Below, piece by piece: positions 2,630 to 27,333 of a stretch of DNA of 64,000 nt; position 1 is the first letter of the stretch; every line of letters starts with the position of its first letter. The notes under the pieces were generated by a model, which had not been told where the DNA came from, searched no databases, and worked only from the letters and a program-made list of their open reading frames with translations. Source of the stretch: Mucilaginibacter achroorhodeus (GTDB lineage: Bacteria > Bacteroidota > Bacteroidia > Sphingobacteriales > Sphingobacteriaceae). The DNA is taken from assembly GCF_007846095.1 (NCBI RefSeq), contig NZ_VOEI01000003.1, positions 248,001 to 312,000 of the forward strand, in the 5' to 3' direction. A program made the position numbers and the translations under genes.

Positions 2630-4642
2630 TTAAATTGTTATTTGCATGGTTAAACGATACGAGCGACCAGGCATAGGATAGCTCTGGATGATCGCGTAAT
2701 ATTTATTGAAGATGTTGTTTGCCTCTACAGAAAGCCGCAAAGGCAAATGATCAAAGCTTGTGTTATAAAGTATTGAAGCGTCGCCAACGGCATATCCCGG
2801 CACATCATGTCCCGGATCATTATCGCCGTTGTAATTTCTTTTAGATGAGATTATCTGATTGTAGTAAATACCCAGCTTTTTAAAATTTATGCCGGTATTT
2901 AATGCCAGCGTATGTTTGGGGGTGTAAGCTATTTGCTGCAGATAAGTACTTAATGCAGGGTCGGTAACATCAAGCGCTTGCTGGTAAGTATAATTTGCTG
3001 TTAATGACAAACTCCAGTTGCCAAAATTTCGTGTGGCAGTCTTTAAACCCAAATCCAGCCCTTTAATATCCACTCTGCCAACATTGCTAAAAGAAAAAAC
3101 AGCCGGGTTAGCACTGGGTATGCCGATGATCTTGTCGCGCACGTTGTTGTAATAAACGTCTGCGCTAAGAAAAACGTAGCTAAACAGCCCGTTCATATCT
3201 TTGTTGTAAGTAGCTCCCAGGTCGTACTGCTTTACAAACTCCGGTTTGATAACGCGATCGACAAAGGCAAAATAGTAAAGCTCATCAAGCGTTGGTGCCC
3301 TAAAAATGTTTTTGTAAAAGGCCCGAAGCTTAAGCGCTTTAGAAGCAAAGGGTTGAACCCCTAACATAAGCGTTGGCGATAACACCGGCGATTGTTGGAG
3401 AGCCTTGCCTCTTTCAACCTTTTCGTTGATGTAAGTGTGCAGTAAATTACCGGCAAGTTCCCACCTGTCAAACTTTAATTTACTTGCCAACGCATTTAAT
3501 AGTGTGAAACGTGATGGGTAGGCATATTTGTAGATATCAGCATCTACTTTGGTGTAAGAACCATCGGCGGCGTAAGATATAACCCAATCGTTGGTTAGGT
3601 TATAAGATAGTGCTGCCGACTGGTAAGCTTCGCGCTGTTTGTAATGCTGTAGAATATAACCCTGCGTATTAAAGTAAGGCGAATCGAGGTAGCGGGTCTT
3701 TAATTGCGAAACCTTGCTGTTTAACAATAATTGCAAACTGTTCTTCCATATGCGTTTGAAAGAAGCTTGCAGGAATATATCATCATTATCCAGCTTTTCT
3801 CCGGGCGACTCGGTGTAGAACACCACGGCACCAGGCAAGCCTCGTTTGGCGTTATAAAAATTAGCATGTACACTAAACAGGCTGCTATCATTTTTATTCC
3901 AGTACAATGCTGCGTCTGTTTGTAATGATCGTACCTGGCTGTTATGCCTCGTTGAAAGGGTATCACTGCCATCATTTGGCGTGTCAAATTTATAACGCCC
4001 GTTGGCGTTGATGTAGTTGTTGGTCACAACTGTTGTCCAACGCTTGCTTAATCTCTGTTGATAGAGAACGTAAGGATTAAAAAGACCAAAACTGCCGCCC
4101 TTTACCCCTGCTGTTATTTCATAAGCTTTATCGTTGCCTAATTGGGCAGGTACAGTTTGCAAACTCAGTACACTTGCTGCGGCAAACGCCCTGGCTGGTT
4201 GTAGCAGGTCATCGGGCTGGCCGTTATAAAGTGTAATGGAACGTATATTGATCAGGCTGAGTTTGCTCAGATCTATTTGTCCGGTCTCGGCATCGTTAAG
4301 TTGCAAGCCGTCGTAAAATACGGCGGTGTGTCCTGCGCCTAATCCTCGTACTGATATTGTTTTTATCCCGCCTATCCCGCCGTAATCTTTTATGTTAACC
4401 CCGCTTAAAGTCCTAACGGCATCTGCTACGTTGAACGAGCCTGATCTTATAAAATCCTGATTGTTGATCTGCTGAACCGGCGTGATTGATGGTACTACAA
4501 GTGCCTTGTGTGCATTAACAGAAACTTCATGGAGCGTACGGCTGGTATCTGTCTGCCCAAAAACTACTATTGCAGGCAGCGTAAATACTGGTACAAGTAT
4601 AGCCTTTAAAAAAATACTCCGGTGAAATTTGCTGCCTTTCAT
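2630..4642 (-). CDS. TonB-dependent outer-membrane receptor, BtuB-like (cobalamin)
   Basis: A 670-residue TonB-dependent receptor with a signal peptide (about 1-29, ending FGQ). The plug domain follows (about 50-160, with ISVRGLGAGHTAVFYDG and the IRSITLYNGQPDDLL stretch). The 22-strand barrel runs to a C-terminal aromatic-containing strand (RSYRLTMQITI). The TonB box is probably the LHEVSVNAH segment after the signal peptide. Its 5' leader carries a clear cobalamin riboswitch, so the substrate is predicted to be vitamin B12 or another corrinoid, imported with TonB energy. It is the first gene of a three-gene operon with the propeller lipoprotein (10-nt gap) and the DUF6580 protein. A longer open frame in another phase at its 5' end is a shadow. 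Confidence 0.92.
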   Translation of the reverse strand: MKGSKFHRSIFLKAILVPVFTLPAIVVFGQTDTSRTLHEVSVNAHKALVVPSITPVQQINNQDFIRSGSFNVADAVRTLSGVNIKDYGGIGGIKTISVRGLGAGHTAVFYDGLQLNDAETGQIDLSKLSLINIRSITLYNGQPDDLLQPARAFAAASVLSLQTVPAQLGNDKAYEITAGVKGGSFGLFNPYVLYQQRLSKRWTTVVTNNYINANGRYKFDTPNDGSDTLSTRHNSQVRSLQTDAALYWNKNDSSLFSVHANFYNAKRGLPGAVVFYTESPGEKLDNDDIFLQASFKRIWKNSLQLLLNSKVSQLKTRYLDSPYFNTQGYILQHYKQREAYQSAALSYNLTNDWVISYAADGSYTKVDADIYKYAYPSRFTLLNALASKLKFDRWELAGNLLHTYINEKVERGKALQQSPVLSPTLMLGVQPFASKALKLRAFYKNIFRAPTLDELYYFAFVDRVIKPEFVKQYDLGATYNKDMNGLFSYVFLSADVYYNNVRDKIIGIPSANPAVFSFSNVGRVDIKGLDLGLKTATRNFGNWSLSLTANYTYQQALDVTDPALSTYLQQIAYTPKHTLALNTGINFKKLGIYYNQIISSKRNYNGDNDPGHDVPGYAVGDASILYNTSFDHLPLRLSVEANNIFNKYYAIIQSYPMPGRSYRLTMQITI

Positions 4643-4751
4643 AACTAACGATCATGGCAGCGTAGGATACAGATGAGAAAAACCGGCAATATAAATTACC
4701 GGAAGATCGCATCCATGCTTCAATCCGCGAAAGCCATGAATAATATTACGC

Positions 4752-23133: not shown

Positions 23134-23451
23134 CTAAACTAACAACGCATGTATCTCCAATAGGTACAAGCTTTCCACCATGGCCGAATTAAAGTCGTCC
23201 CATTCCTCCCTGGTGAAAACAAAGTTGATATCCCGGTTTGGCGTACACAAGACAACTCTTTCAGATCCATCCGGAAACGGAAAACTCCGGTCTTCAAAAC
23301 TCATATCATTGGTAAACTGCTGAAACGAGTTAAACTGTGAAGGCGAAAAGCAAAGCAGCAGATTATGATGCCAGATATTTAACATGCCACAATCAGGGCA
23401 ATGGCTGATAACCGTAGCGCCTTTTTGGGTAAGGATGATGGTTTCGCACAT
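23134..23451 (-). CDS. Small Cys/His-containing protein, DUF6686-like
   Basis: A 105-residue cytoplasmic protein that starts MCETIILTQKGATVISHC and has a CPDC motif with nearby His residues (HCPDCG about 18-23, WHHNLLLC about 27-34), suggesting a metal or redox site. It appears to match the Bacteroidota family DUF6686. The start was set at ATG 23449-23451. The upstream extension to 23532 begins with TTG and is occupied by a strong hairpin. It lies downstream of hmuY in the haem-type operon, so a role tied to haem or iron handling is possible but unproven. Confidence 0.72.
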   Translation of the reverse strand: MCETIILTQKGATVISHCPDCGMLNIWHHNLLLCFSPSQFNSFQQFTNDMSFEDRSFPFPDGSERVVLCTPNRDINFVFTREEWDDFNSAMVESLYLLEIHALLV

Positions 23452-23475
23452 AAGCGTAAATGTTTTGATATTGTG

Positions 23476-23520
23476 CCTGTAATACCCGCGGCAAACGCTC
23501 AAAAGCCGCGGGTAAACAGG
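23476..23520. repeat. Strong stem-loop between hmuY and the DUF6686-like gene
   Basis: A perfect 10-bp GC-rich stem TACCCGCGGC / GCCGCGGGTA (23483-23492, 23505-23514) is extended by a 5-bp outer stem CCTGT / ACAGG (23476-23480, 23516-23520) with small bulges. There is no T run after it on the minus strand, so it is not a standard terminator. It may protect the upstream mRNA or separate expression of the two genes. Confidence 0.8.
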
Positions 23521-23543
23521 ACTTTCTATCAACTAACCAATTG

Positions 23544-24167
23544 TTAATTCAATTTAGCGCTACCATCTGCCTGGTAAGCGAATTTAAAAGTGTAAAATCT
23601 TGATGGTGTTACAGATTCGCGTGCGGTAAAATCGGCAAAGGCTGCTGTGGTAACATCCGGGTTACCTTTGTAGTAGCTTTTCATTTCAAGCTTGGCATAA
23701 TTACCGGTTGATGTTTTGATGACGATTATCTTACCGGCTACAGGTAGGATAGCATGGTTGGGAACGGAATTAGTAGCCGTGTATAAATACCAACCATTAA
23801 CTGCTTTTGCGCCGGTAGCATCTGTTTTGTAGCCGGATGTTGGTGCTGTTGTTAAACCGTCAAATGTATTGTCAACAACCTGTGCCTGCACATTGCCCGA
23901 GCCGGATGATCCGCTATTTACGTAGATGCTGGTGGTGGAGAATTTAAGATCCCATTTACCGGCCGTCACATCATCCGCGGTAGCCTGTTTATTGTCGCTT
24001 AGGCGGTAGTAAACATCGCCCTTGCTGCCGTCAAGATCGGTTACAGTATTTACGGTTAAGGTTGCTGCCTTTGCAGGTTCAGGCGATGAATTATCCTTTG
24101 TGCATGATGTATTCGCAATTGCTACGAAACCAAAGATTACTAATGAAAGGGTTTTAAGTTTATTCAT
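23544..24167 (-). CDS. HmuY-family haem-binding lipoprotein
   Basis: A 207-residue lipoprotein with a signal ending in NTSC (Cys at 22) and a HmuY fold signature: DLDGSKGDVYYRLSDNK (about 44-60), GKWDLKFSTTSIYVN (about 68-82), and the C-terminal PSRFYTFKFAYQADGS. In Porphyromonas gingivalis HmuY is a haem-scavenging surface lipoprotein passing haem to its receptor HmuR. The gene directly follows (19-nt gap) a TonB-dependent receptor, as in that system. It is all-beta by family. The axial ligands of P. gingivalis HmuY are His residues, but few His are present here, so ligand use may differ. Confidence 0.87.
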   Translation of the reverse strand: MNKLKTLSLVIFGFVAIANTSCTKDNSSPEPAKAATLTVNTVTDLDGSKGDVYYRLSDNKQATADDVTAGKWDLKFSTTSIYVNSGSSGSGNVQAQVVDNTFDGLTTAPTSGYKTDATGAKAVNGWYLYTATNSVPNHAILPVAGKIIVIKTSTGNYAKLEMKSYYKGNPDVTTAAFADFTARESVTPSRFYTFKFAYQADGSAKLN

Positions 24168-24186: not shown

Positions 24187-26268
24187 TTAGCTTTTGTTAA
24201 AGTTGTAAGTGATACCGGCGTAAAGTAACCGGCCGGGTAAGTTGCTTATGGCAATAGGATTTTTGTAATTGCCGATATTATCTGCCGTTACCTGTACGCG
24301 CAGTTGGTTCCTCATGAAAAATTTGGATACAGAGGCATTGAACAGCACGTATCCCTTCACATATTCATCCGGGCGGTTCACTATGCCATTGCCGTCCAGA
24401 TCCGAGAAGCCGTATCTGCCTCGGTAGATCGCCCTTAAAGAGGTAATAATGCCCGTCTTTTCATCTTCGTAGGCAACGCGTGCGTTAGCCATGTAGCGCG
24501 ACCGATTGAGCAAACCACCATACATACTGCGGGTAACCTTTACGGTTTCGCGAGTTGCAGGGTCTATACTAAAAACTTTTCCTTGTTTTATACGATCGAG
24601 CACGCTTTGGTCATAAGCTTGGAGGTATTGGAACCCGCCGCTAACCGTCCAGTGTTTTAGAAATTGATAACTTAAATCAGTTTCTACCCCTTGCGTGTAA
24701 ACATTGTGGATATTGAAGTAAGAGAAAACAGATTGTCCATTATTTTTAATGGCTATCGGTTGCGAATCTATCAGGTCGCGGATATTATTCCGGAACGCGT
24801 TTGCAGTCCACATTAAGCCCGACACAGGTTTATAGCGAAAGCCAAAATTGTAGGCAGTAGAACTCTCGGCGTTCAACCGTTGTAAGGTCGATGGGTCTAT
24901 CAATACGCTTTGGATCTGCCCGGCATCCTGCAGCTTTTTCAGTTCGCTGGCTGCTTCTTCATAACCAAACACACTGTAACCAACTACTGCATTGGTAAAA
25001 TTGAGGTATAACTGCCTGAAATCAGGCGCTTTGTAGCCTTTGCCTGTTGAAGCAAGAACAGTAAAATTTTCCGTAAACCTGTAACTTGCTGCCAGTTTAG
25101 GGCTAAACTGATTTCCGTAAACGCTATGTGTATCGTACCGGCCGCCAGCAATTACGTTTAATTTTTCAATCGGTGTCCAATCGGCTTGGCCATACAGGTA
25201 ACCCGAGTTAAATGTCTTTTTATCATTGTAGCGTGTTGCCAAAACACTTTCGTTTTGTGCGCCTGCGCCTGCCGTGATCCGCAAACTTTGTAATAGCTTA
25301 TAATCGCCCTGCAATTCTGCACGATTAAAATTCTGGTCGAAAAATGTTTGGTCGTAAATTGAGCCATCAGCCTGATTGTTTAGCAATGACTTTGTATTGT
25401 AGCTGGTATGGTAAAGCCTTACGTCACCTGTAAACGCATCTGTAAACTTATGAGTAAGACCCGCACTGGCTGTCAGGTTTTTTTCCTTGCCGTCACCGCT
25501 TATTCGATTGTTGTCCACTAAAAAGTTATTATCAGCAGTGCTATTATAATTGCGTAACTGAACGGTGATCCTGGTAGCATTGCTAAACTTGTATCCCAGC
25601 CTTCCATTTAAGGTATAATTGTAAAATGGAAACACTGTTGCACTGCCGGACTGTGGTTGTAACGAATAGCCGCTGCTGCTATTGCGGTTAACAAAGCCCG
25701 ATAGCGATAATCTTGAATTGGCGTAACCTCCATTTAGCGATATATCTGCATTTTTATTGTTACCGTACCGGGCACTTACACTACCAGAAGCACCTTTGGG
25801 TGGTGTTGCCGATATGATATTGATTACTCCGGCCATGGCCTCACTGCCATAGAGTGACGATACAGGCCCTTTCACAATCTCTATCTTATCAATGTTGTTG
25901 GCTGTTATGCGGCTTAGGTCCAGGATACCTGTAGTACGGCCTATCAGCGGCAGGCCATCAAGCATGATCATGGTGTAATCAGAATTAAAGCCCTGTAGCT
26001 GTATCCCCTGCCCATGAGCGTCGGGCAGTACACTTAAACCAGTTTGTTCTGCGAGTATCTCATTAAGGTGCACCATGCCACGGTTCTTTATTTCTTTGGC
26101 GGTAATAATAGAAACCGGCATCGGCACTTGCATCAGGTTTTTGTTTGTACGTGTGGCTGTCACTACTACTTCTTTCAATTTCTTCGATGTGTCGATATGA
26201 GCAGTATCCGCCTGTTGCGCAATTGCATTCGCAGAGAAAAATACCAGGCAGATAAAAATAAGTTTCAT
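24187..26268 (-). CDS. TonB-dependent receptor, HmuR-like
   Basis: A 693-residue TonB-dependent outer-membrane receptor with a signal peptide (1-17, ending AIAQ). The TonB box region is KKLKEVVVTATRT (about 30-42). The plug domain has LQGFNSDYTMIMLDGLPLIG and IEIVKGPVSSLYGSEAMAGV in outline, and the long beta barrel ends in RLLYAGITYNFNKS. It is followed by hmuY, which points to haem or a related iron source as substrate (inference). The divergent AraC gene starts 97 bp away and probably controls it. Two operator-like sequences lie in that gap. Confidence 0.9.
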   Translation of the reverse strand: MKLIFICLVFFSANAIAQQADTAHIDTSKKLKEVVVTATRTNKNLMQVPMPVSIITAKEIKNRGMVHLNEILAEQTGLSVLPDAHGQGIQLQGFNSDYTMIMLDGLPLIGRTTGILDLSRITANNIDKIEIVKGPVSSLYGSEAMAGVINIISATPPKGASGSVSARYGNNKNADISLNGGYANSRLSLSGFVNRNSSSGYSLQPQSGSATVFPFYNYTLNGRLGYKFSNATRITVQLRNYNSTADNNFLVDNNRISGDGKEKNLTASAGLTHKFTDAFTGDVRLYHTSYNTKSLLNNQADGSIYDQTFFDQNFNRAELQGDYKLLQSLRITAGAGAQNESVLATRYNDKKTFNSGYLYGQADWTPIEKLNVIAGGRYDTHSVYGNQFSPKLAASYRFTENFTVLASTGKGYKAPDFRQLYLNFTNAVVGYSVFGYEEAASELKKLQDAGQIQSVLIDPSTLQRLNAESSTAYNFGFRYKPVSGLMWTANAFRNNIRDLIDSQPIAIKNNGQSVFSYFNIHNVYTQGVETDLSYQFLKHWTVSGGFQYLQAYDQSVLDRIKQGKVFSIDPATRETVKVTRSMYGGLLNRSRYMANARVAYEDEKTGIITSLRAIYRGRYGFSDLDGNGIVNRPDEYVKGYVLFNASVSKFFMRNQLRVQVTADNIGNYKNPIAISNLPGRLLYAGITYNFNKS

Positions 26269-26294
26269 TTATTTAGACTAATTATAAATAATGA

Positions 26295-26306
26295 TGCAAA
26301 TTTGCA
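26295..26306. promoter_or_regulatory. 12-bp perfect palindrome in the receptor-AraC gap
   Basis: TGCAAATTTGCA is perfectly self-complementary and lies 27 bp upstream of the receptor start. It could be an operator for the divergent promoters. No matching consensus was recognised, and it does not look like a classic Fur box. Confidence 0.45.
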
Positions 26307-26326
26307 GTATTGTTGCTTTGGTGGGT

Positions 26327-26362
26327 AACGCCAAACGGATTGAAAACAACGCGAAACGGATT
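26327..26362 (+). promoter_or_regulatory. Direct repeats spaced 21 bp before the AraC gene
   Basis: Two 15-bp sequences, AACGCCAAACGGATT (26327-26341) and AACGCGAAACGGATT (26348-26362), match at 14 of 15 bases and start 21 bp apart, two helical turns. This is the spacing typical of AraC-family operator half-sites. They end 2 bp before the regulator ATG and lie between it and the receptor gene. Confidence 0.7.
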
Positions 26363-26364
26363 TT

Positions 26365-27333
26365 ATGCATCTAACCTTTACGTCAGCCGCGTCATCAATA
26401 CAAATTCTTAAAATTGGATGTCAAGACGATATAACGAACAATGATTTTCAGCAATTTCAAAAGGTTATAAATGCTGATTGGGGATCGTGTGATACTAAGC
26501 AGCTGTGCTTCAATGGGGTTTCCGTTTGCATGCTGGATATTGAAATTTCAGCTGAATGCAAGCTCTATATAGAGCCTGAAAAATACCACTGGATGATGAC
26601 GTTTGTATTAAGCGGAGATCTGGAAGCTGATTTCTCCGATAATAAGAGGTTGAAATTGATTCCCGGCAATTTTTACAGTTTTAACTGCCTCGAATTTAAG
26701 AGAGAGATAAGGATTGATACATCCGGACAGATAATGCTGATTGCCCTAACAGACAAGTTTATGCAGCAGTTATTGAGCCCTAAGATCATTGAAGGCATTT
26801 CATATCACAGCAGCAACATTCACGTCTTGGCGCATGGCAGTTTTCTGAATACACGGATGCAACCCATATTTATGGACATTATGGATGACGGCAAACCCGA
26901 TTACATTCGCCGGATATTAATTGAAGCAAAAATATTAGAACTGCTGTCTATGCAGCTTCATCAGGCCAATGATGATAAAATAACGGATGCTTTCAACGAG
27001 GAAGATGTTAAACGCTTAAACGAGGCCAGGCAAATCGTAGCGGCCAATTTGCAAACGCCATGTTCATTGATAGACCTTGCACGCCGAACCGGACTTAATG
27101 ATTTTAAACTAAAAAAAGGATTTAAAGCCCTGTTTGGCCAAACTGTATTTGGTTACCTTAACGAGATGCGAATGGAAACGGCCTACAATTACTTGCAGGC
27201 CGGCAAAACAGTTGGTGAAGTAGCCGAACTTGTAGGCTATAAAAATGCACACCACTTCACCGCTGCGTTTAAAAAGAAGTTCAGTTTTTTACCCAGTCAG
27301 GTTACAAGGTCAAATGTCAATAAGCCATTGTAA
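26365..27333 (+). CDS. AraC-family transcriptional regulator
   Basis: A 322-residue regulator. The first 210 residues are a ligand-sensing region without a recognised fold. Residues about 222-318 are the AraC double helix-turn-helix, with LIDLARRTGLNDFKLKKGFK, then the second helix-turn-helix VGEVAELVGYKNAHHFTAAFKKKF. It resembles PchR/YbtA-type regulators of iron-siderophore uptake in length and domain order. It is divergent from the haem-type receptor and probably activates it. Near-perfect direct repeats just before its ATG suggest control of both genes. Its TAA abuts the convergent lipoprotein stop. Confidence 0.9.
   Translation: MHLTFTSAASSIQILKIGCQDDITNNDFQQFQKVINADWGSCDTKQLCFNGVSVCMLDIEISAECKLYIEPEKYHWMMTFVLSGDLEADFSDNKRLKLIPGNFYSFNCLEFKREIRIDTSGQIMLIALTDKFMQQLLSPKIIEGISYHSSNIHVLAHGSFLNTRMQPIFMDIMDDGKPDYIRRILIEAKILELLSMQLHQANDDKITDAFNEEDVKRLNEARQIVAANLQTPCSLIDLARRTGLNDFKLKKGFKALFGQTVFGYLNEMRMETAYNYLQAGKTVGEVAELVGYKNAHHFTAAFKKKFSFLPSQVTRSNVNKPL

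Follow-up and report, generated by a model that had tools for sequence, protein, structure and literature searches.

Direct repeats 21 bp apart as the probable operator of an AraC-family regulator facing iron- and haem-uptake genes in Bacteroidota

Introduction

In Mucilaginibacter achroorhodeus, a gene for a TonB-dependent outer-membrane receptor and a gene for an AraC-family regulator diverge from a short gap, and in that gap lie two nearly identical 15-bp direct repeats. Is this pair the operator of the adjacent regulator and, if it is, which of the two genes does it serve? The geometry is a familiar one: at araI1-araI2 of the pBAD promoter, Escherichia coli AraC occupies direct-repeat half-sites 21 bp apart, beside the -35 region and with the regulator gene divergent.

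An original prediction had taken the repeats for the operator of a haem/iron regulator subject to feedback control. We have analysed the pair in its window (the whole 64-kb stretch of DNA under study), in the genome it comes from, and at related loci across Bacteroidota. The reading that we favour, with a probability of about 0.85, is that the adjacent AraC regulator has its operator in these repeats, and that it would activate the receptor-hmuY(-DUF6686) operon and would probably repress araC.

Results

The repeat pair in the window

The features of the locus are collected in Table 1. The two 15-mers, their single difference and their spacing are all where the original prediction had put them. 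AACGCCAAACGGATT and AACGCGAAACGGATT are direct repeats identical at 14 of 15 positions, with a C/G mismatch at position 6, and they start 21 bp apart with the linker GAAAAC between them. The predicted gap of 96 bp between the two genes is also what we measure (26269-26364, from a receptor start at 26268 on the minus strand to an AraC start at 26365 on the plus strand). The pair does not sit in the middle of this gap; it abuts araC, with 2 bp separating half-site 2 from the start codon.

Table 1. Features of the receptor-araC locus, in window coordinates
Feature	Position	Strand	Remarks
DUF6686 protein	23134-23532	-	PF20391; probable last operon gene in nearest relatives
HmuY-family lipoprotein	23544-24167	-	PF14064, E 1.7e-9; predicted second operon gene
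TonB-dependent outer-membrane receptor, HmuR-like	24187-26268	-	plug PF07715 and beta-barrel PF00593; predicted main target
Conserved block TTATAATTAGTCTAAATAA	26269-26287	-	TTAG-T-CTAA palindrome at its core; adjoins receptor start codon; candidate metal-repressor box
Predicted -7 element CAAATTTG	26297-26304	-	matches (T/C)AnnTTTG; 22 nt from operator edge; invariant in 11 representative loci
Half-site 1 AACGCCAAACGGATT	26327-26341	+	receptor-promoter-proximal half; conserved in relatives
Half-site 2 AACGCGAAACGGATT	26348-26362	+	araC-proximal half; conserved in relatives
AraC-family regulator, 322 aa	26365-27333	+	cupin-like N-terminal domain and two-HTH DNA-binding domain

A scan of the window over spacings of 16-59 bp finds no other pair with at least 14/15 identity. 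Shuffles of the window expect 0.28 such pairs when all these spacings are pooled, and 0.0 at spacing 21. In the 4.28 Mb of its own genome, the repeat pair is present once, allowing up to three mismatches. Taken by itself, the pair count in the window carries little weight, and far more comes from the comparison with relatives.

Conservation of the operator across relatives

We fetched 79 loci with AraC homologues from named genomes, and searched them for half-sites without fixing the spacing. Of 47 close half-site pairs upstream of araC, 43 have a spacing of exactly 21 bp; a control with the reversed pattern gives no half-site pairs in the same 79 loci. With the spacing fixed at 21 bp, the region upstream of araC yields 52 pairs, and the other 757 kb of those loci yield none. 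For some AraC relatives, L023, L051, L054 and L056 among them, the upstream half-site search found no clear operator.

The original prediction had proposed looking for the AAACGGATT pair upstream of orthologous AraC genes, and there it is found at 21 bp. Leaving the spacer free to vary between 10 and 14 bases, a search of 400 family-level genomes recovers 25 AAACGGATT pairs in 24 genomes, and the spacer is 12 in all 25 (that is, 21 bp from start to start). The majority lie just upstream of an AraC gene. Two of them (L134 and L135) adjoin TonB receptor genes with no araC adjacent, and one of these two faces a gene for a periplasmic binding protein of the haem/B12/siderophore type. A stricter pattern searched across the phylum is positive in 12 of 392 genomes, a count that misses variants and so is no measure of how widely the operator is spread; five of those hits come from related genomes that share one identical stretch, which has no AraC gene next to it.

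The taxa that carry the operator include Sphingobacteriaceae, Flavobacteriaceae, Chitinophagaceae, Dysgonomonadaceae, Tannerellaceae and Cytophagaceae, besides others. From 120 half-sites, picked at the fixed 21-bp spacing, we derive the consensus ACGY-N-AAMGGATT, in which GGA is invariant and the T that follows is present in 98%. In 11 representative loci, the mean column agreement is 0.90-0.92 in the half-sites versus 0.59 in the 22-nt stretch that separates the operator from the -7 box. The relatives compared are not independent. The regulators of the family are only 25-45% identical to the one in the window and still share the operator, which makes leftover ancestry an unlikely explanation; the operator sequence would rather be held by selection.

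As the same spacing recurs before related regulators across Bacteroidota, the pair is very probably a real binding site of the adjacent AraC regulator. On this point the original prediction of an AraC-type operator appears sound, as it agrees with every comparative test available.

Two side observations concern individual relatives. The L135 pair (G039:C13:165521-165550) is a second exact pair in a genome that also carries the cis copy, and has a sigma-factor-like gene nearby; lying upstream of a TonB receptor gene, it is a possible trans target. And in three genomes of one genus (L118, L122 and L128), the operator and AraC gene stand beside a chloramphenicol-acetyltransferase-like gene (the protein was judged by eye), instead of a receptor gene.

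The predicted receptor-side promoter

In Flavobacterium psychrophilum, the Bacteroidota -7 box TAnnTTTG has been mapped at -12 to -5 (PMC9723704). At 49 of 61 loci, a distance of 22 or 23 nt separates the receptor-side edge of the operator from the start of a (T/C)AnnTTTG element (null about 0.46); transcription starts are here deduced from the consensus, and the HmuR-type loci have a common ancestry throughout the -7 region. This layout stays constant though the families of the divergent genes differ. With the box at -12 to -5, the operator would occupy roughly -35 to -70, and relative to the predicted -7 elements it adjoins the -35/-33 region of the receptor promoter.

A looser -7 pattern fits 58 loci, and just 10 of these have a TTG 17-23 nt upstream; canonical -33 elements are mostly missing at these predicted promoters. 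A fixed -7 distance with the -33 element mostly absent is consistent with an uptake gene that the divergent regulator would activate in the manner of AraC. A sigma-70 promoter scan found nothing, as is expected for Bacteroidota.

The -7 sequence CAAATTTG reads the same on both strands, and could act as a promoter element for both the receptor gene and araC. We considered a general bidirectional promoter on this basis and rejected it, since outside Sphingobacteriaceae the -7 boxes are often non-palindromic.

The divergent operon and other predicted target genes

Is the divergent operon one for haem? The gene order receptor-hmuY is kept in 18 relatives, and the HmuY-family protein (PF14064) speaks for the haem part of the original prediction. 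That part is only partly sustained: the similarity of the receptor to the NCBIfam haem and B12 receptor models is below cut-off, and other members of the family face different iron-uptake genes. The genes divergent from araC across the family comprise HmuR-type and other TonB receptors, siderophore-interacting FAD-binding proteins, and a periplasmic binding protein. Both the iron-uptake neighbourhood and the promoter layout agree with a PchR-type regulator that would control TonB receptor or chelate-uptake genes.

The DUF6686 gene follows hmuY in L002, L003, L005, L008 and L009. One further locus bears on this gene: in Mucilaginibacter pallidiroseus (L018), where a receptor and hmuY were not found at the locus, the DUF6686 gene (4329-4691) itself faces the operator and araC, which suggests that DUF6686 is part of the regulated operon.

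A palindromic block at the receptor start codon

The block TTATAATTAGTCTAAATAA is highly conserved at the receptor loci of Sphingobacteriaceae, more so than the operator, with 17 of 19 columns invariant in receptor loci. In this genome, a further three genes for TonB siderophore-type receptors are preceded by similar sites. A candidate iron repressor of the DtxR or Fur type may act at this TTAG-N-CTAA block. The genome encodes two PF02742 (DtxR-family) proteins and has two Fur-family matches. The comparison with DtxR/IdeR-type sites cuts both ways: the TTAG-N-CTAA centre is present and so are DtxR-family proteins, but a search for TTAG-N-CTAA-like patterns returns 10 matches versus 8 for the reversed-pattern control. 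We also observe, before a TonB siderophore-type receptor gene elsewhere in this genome, two tandem TTAG-N-CTAA-like blocks 60 bp apart (L144/L145, G000:C12:159067-159145).

The AraC-family regulator

The regulator matches HTH_18 with an E-value of 3.7e-17 (62.8 bits, against a cut-off of 33.6). In its AlphaFold model (mean pLDDT 88), residues 211-321 resemble AraC-type DNA-binding domains (MarA, AraC, Rns and 3oio) with Z 12-16, and residues ~2-208 resemble the regulatory cupin domains of BgaR, ExsA and AraC with Z ~10. No Pfam family is reported for the N-terminal half, and the cupin assignment comes from fold comparison alone. As modelled, the protein has the two-HTH C-terminal domain of the AraC/XylS family and the cupin-like N-terminal ligand/dimer domain of its AraC subclass. 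It reaches no NCBIfam equivalog cut-off, and its nearest named relatives are from Mucilaginibacter.

The evolution of this regulator seems to have been unusually rapid in its own lineage. It is 43-45% identical to its orthologues, which share 62-79% identity among themselves, while the receptors of those same orthologues are 78-80% identical to the receptor in the window. The disparity between regulator and receptor identities raises the possibility that the ligand of this AraC protein may have changed relative to its orthologues.

Do regulator and operator vary together? Half-site position 1 covaries with the second recognition helix (helix 6), K/N-HH occurring with A and Y-VQH with T. As evidence for the pairing of regulator and operator this covariation is only suggestive, because the tree places nearly all of it in one regulator clade. 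The invariance of the first recognition helix (NDFKLKKG) we dropped as evidence, that peptide having served as one of the probes with which the loci were fetched.

Discussion

Proposed mechanism

We propose that an AraC dimer would bind both 15-bp half-sites, which, as direct repeats spaced by two helical turns, would present themselves on the same face of the DNA. The bound dimer would lie immediately upstream of the divergent receptor promoter, between about -35 and -70. There it would abut RNA polymerase in place of the missing -33 element, and activate transcription of receptor-hmuY(-DUF6686), presumably when the cupin N-terminal domain binds imported haem or a metal chelate. The same dimer, positioned just before the araC start codon, would probably repress araC.

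Alternative explanations

What if the operator serves mainly for negative autoregulation of araC, and the receptor is controlled otherwise, for instance by the TTAG-N-CTAA box? The distance from the operator to the araC ATG is 1-8 bp in most loci, which makes self-repression likely, and the palindromic box at the receptor start outranks the operator in conservation. On the other hand, the araC-side distance ranges over 1-95 bp whereas the -7 distance is rigid at 22 or 23 nt, which casts self-repression in a secondary role; some Pedobacter loci, with the operator 59-92 bp from the ATG, weaken any claim of universal autorepression; and at least two exact pairs (L134 and L135) stand beside TonB receptor genes without an adjacent araC. 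We therefore consider autoregulation as the main function improbable, though as a secondary role, judged from operator position, it is likely. The feedback control of the original prediction thus stays plausible, given an operator just before the araC ATG, but activation of the receptor operon, a role that it did not name, is better supported because of the 22/23-nt distance to the -7 element.

More improbable still is that the operator belongs to some other transcription factor active at these loci, for example to a hybrid two-component system or to an AraC protein other than the adjacent one. Bacteroides HTCS regulators also have AraC-type DNA-binding domains, with predicted direct-repeat motifs at an average spacing of 21 bp (PMC3878776). 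From one family of the phylum to the next, however, the motif accompanies this AraC gene; it occurs only once in its own genome, and the base at position 1 varies with helix-6 residues, though mostly in one regulator clade.

An RNA-level element of the araC leader, controlling translation, would account for repeats that abut the start codon (in many loci they stop 2 bp short of the ATG). It would not account for operators that lie 59-95 bp from the ATG, or beside receptor genes without araC; moreover, direct repeats cannot pair mutually, and separation by exactly two turns of the helix is a property of DNA. We regard such an element as very improbable. Chance, or a functionless duplication, would be allowed by the shuffle expectation over pooled spacings, but it has a negligible probability, already contradicted by an exact spacing that recurs in dozens of diverged loci and nowhere else in those loci.

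Relation to known systems

If the repeats do serve the adjacent AraC regulator as its operator, how much of this is new? The 21-bp direct-repeat geometry is already known, from AraC and from Bacteroides HTCS. Like E. coli AraC, the regulator has two domains with a cupin-like N-terminal one, and direct repeats 21 bp apart; unlike at pBAD, the half-site sequence is a different one, the promoter has a Bacteroidota -7 element, and the target would be iron/haem uptake. HTCS are membrane sensor kinases for polysaccharides, whereas here we have a one-component regulator with a cupin domain.

A functional parallel can be drawn with the AraC-type siderophore regulators PchR, YbtA and AlcR, which regulate TonB receptor/siderophore genes, and for which activation of uptake goes together with self-repression, as predicted here (PMC7600106, PMC9774294). 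PchR, in particular, activates the gene of its siderophore receptor and represses its own gene (PMC7600106). Unlike these regulators, the one in the window reaches the cut-off of no NCBIfam equivalog.

The operon itself resembles hmuYR of Porphyromonas gingivalis and hfpRY of F. psychrophilum, which combine a TonB receptor with a HmuY-family haem-binding protein and are iron-regulated; in their passages on these operons, the two sources name neither a divergent AraC regulator that would be cognate nor an operator (PMC9331221, PMC10434189). For hmuYR the passages cite CdhR, and for hfp they propose Fur, with no settled site (PMC9331221, PMC10434189).

In the literature searched, which is a part of the whole, we did not find the operator sequence, its tie to an iron/haem AraC family, or the fixed -7 distance, and a search within that literature for the half-site letters and for the TTAG-N-CTAA palindrome returned nothing relevant.

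A possible operator code for iron-chelate uptake

A broader reading, which we hold as somewhat better than an even bet, is that two copies of ACGYN-AAMGGATT spaced by 21 bp, together with a -7 element 22 or 23 nt away, would be an operator code common across Bacteroidota to an AraC family whose diverged sensor domains face different iron-chelate uptake genes. In Sphingobacteriaceae, the addition of a metal-repressor box at the receptor start would make an AND gate, open when iron is needed and the ligand is present.

The regulation of iron and haem uptake in Bacteroidota is poorly mapped. An operator that can be read, together with a fixed promoter layout, would make haem and chelate regulons predictable from sequence, and the operator offers a possible haem- or chelate-inducible promoter for Bacteroidota.
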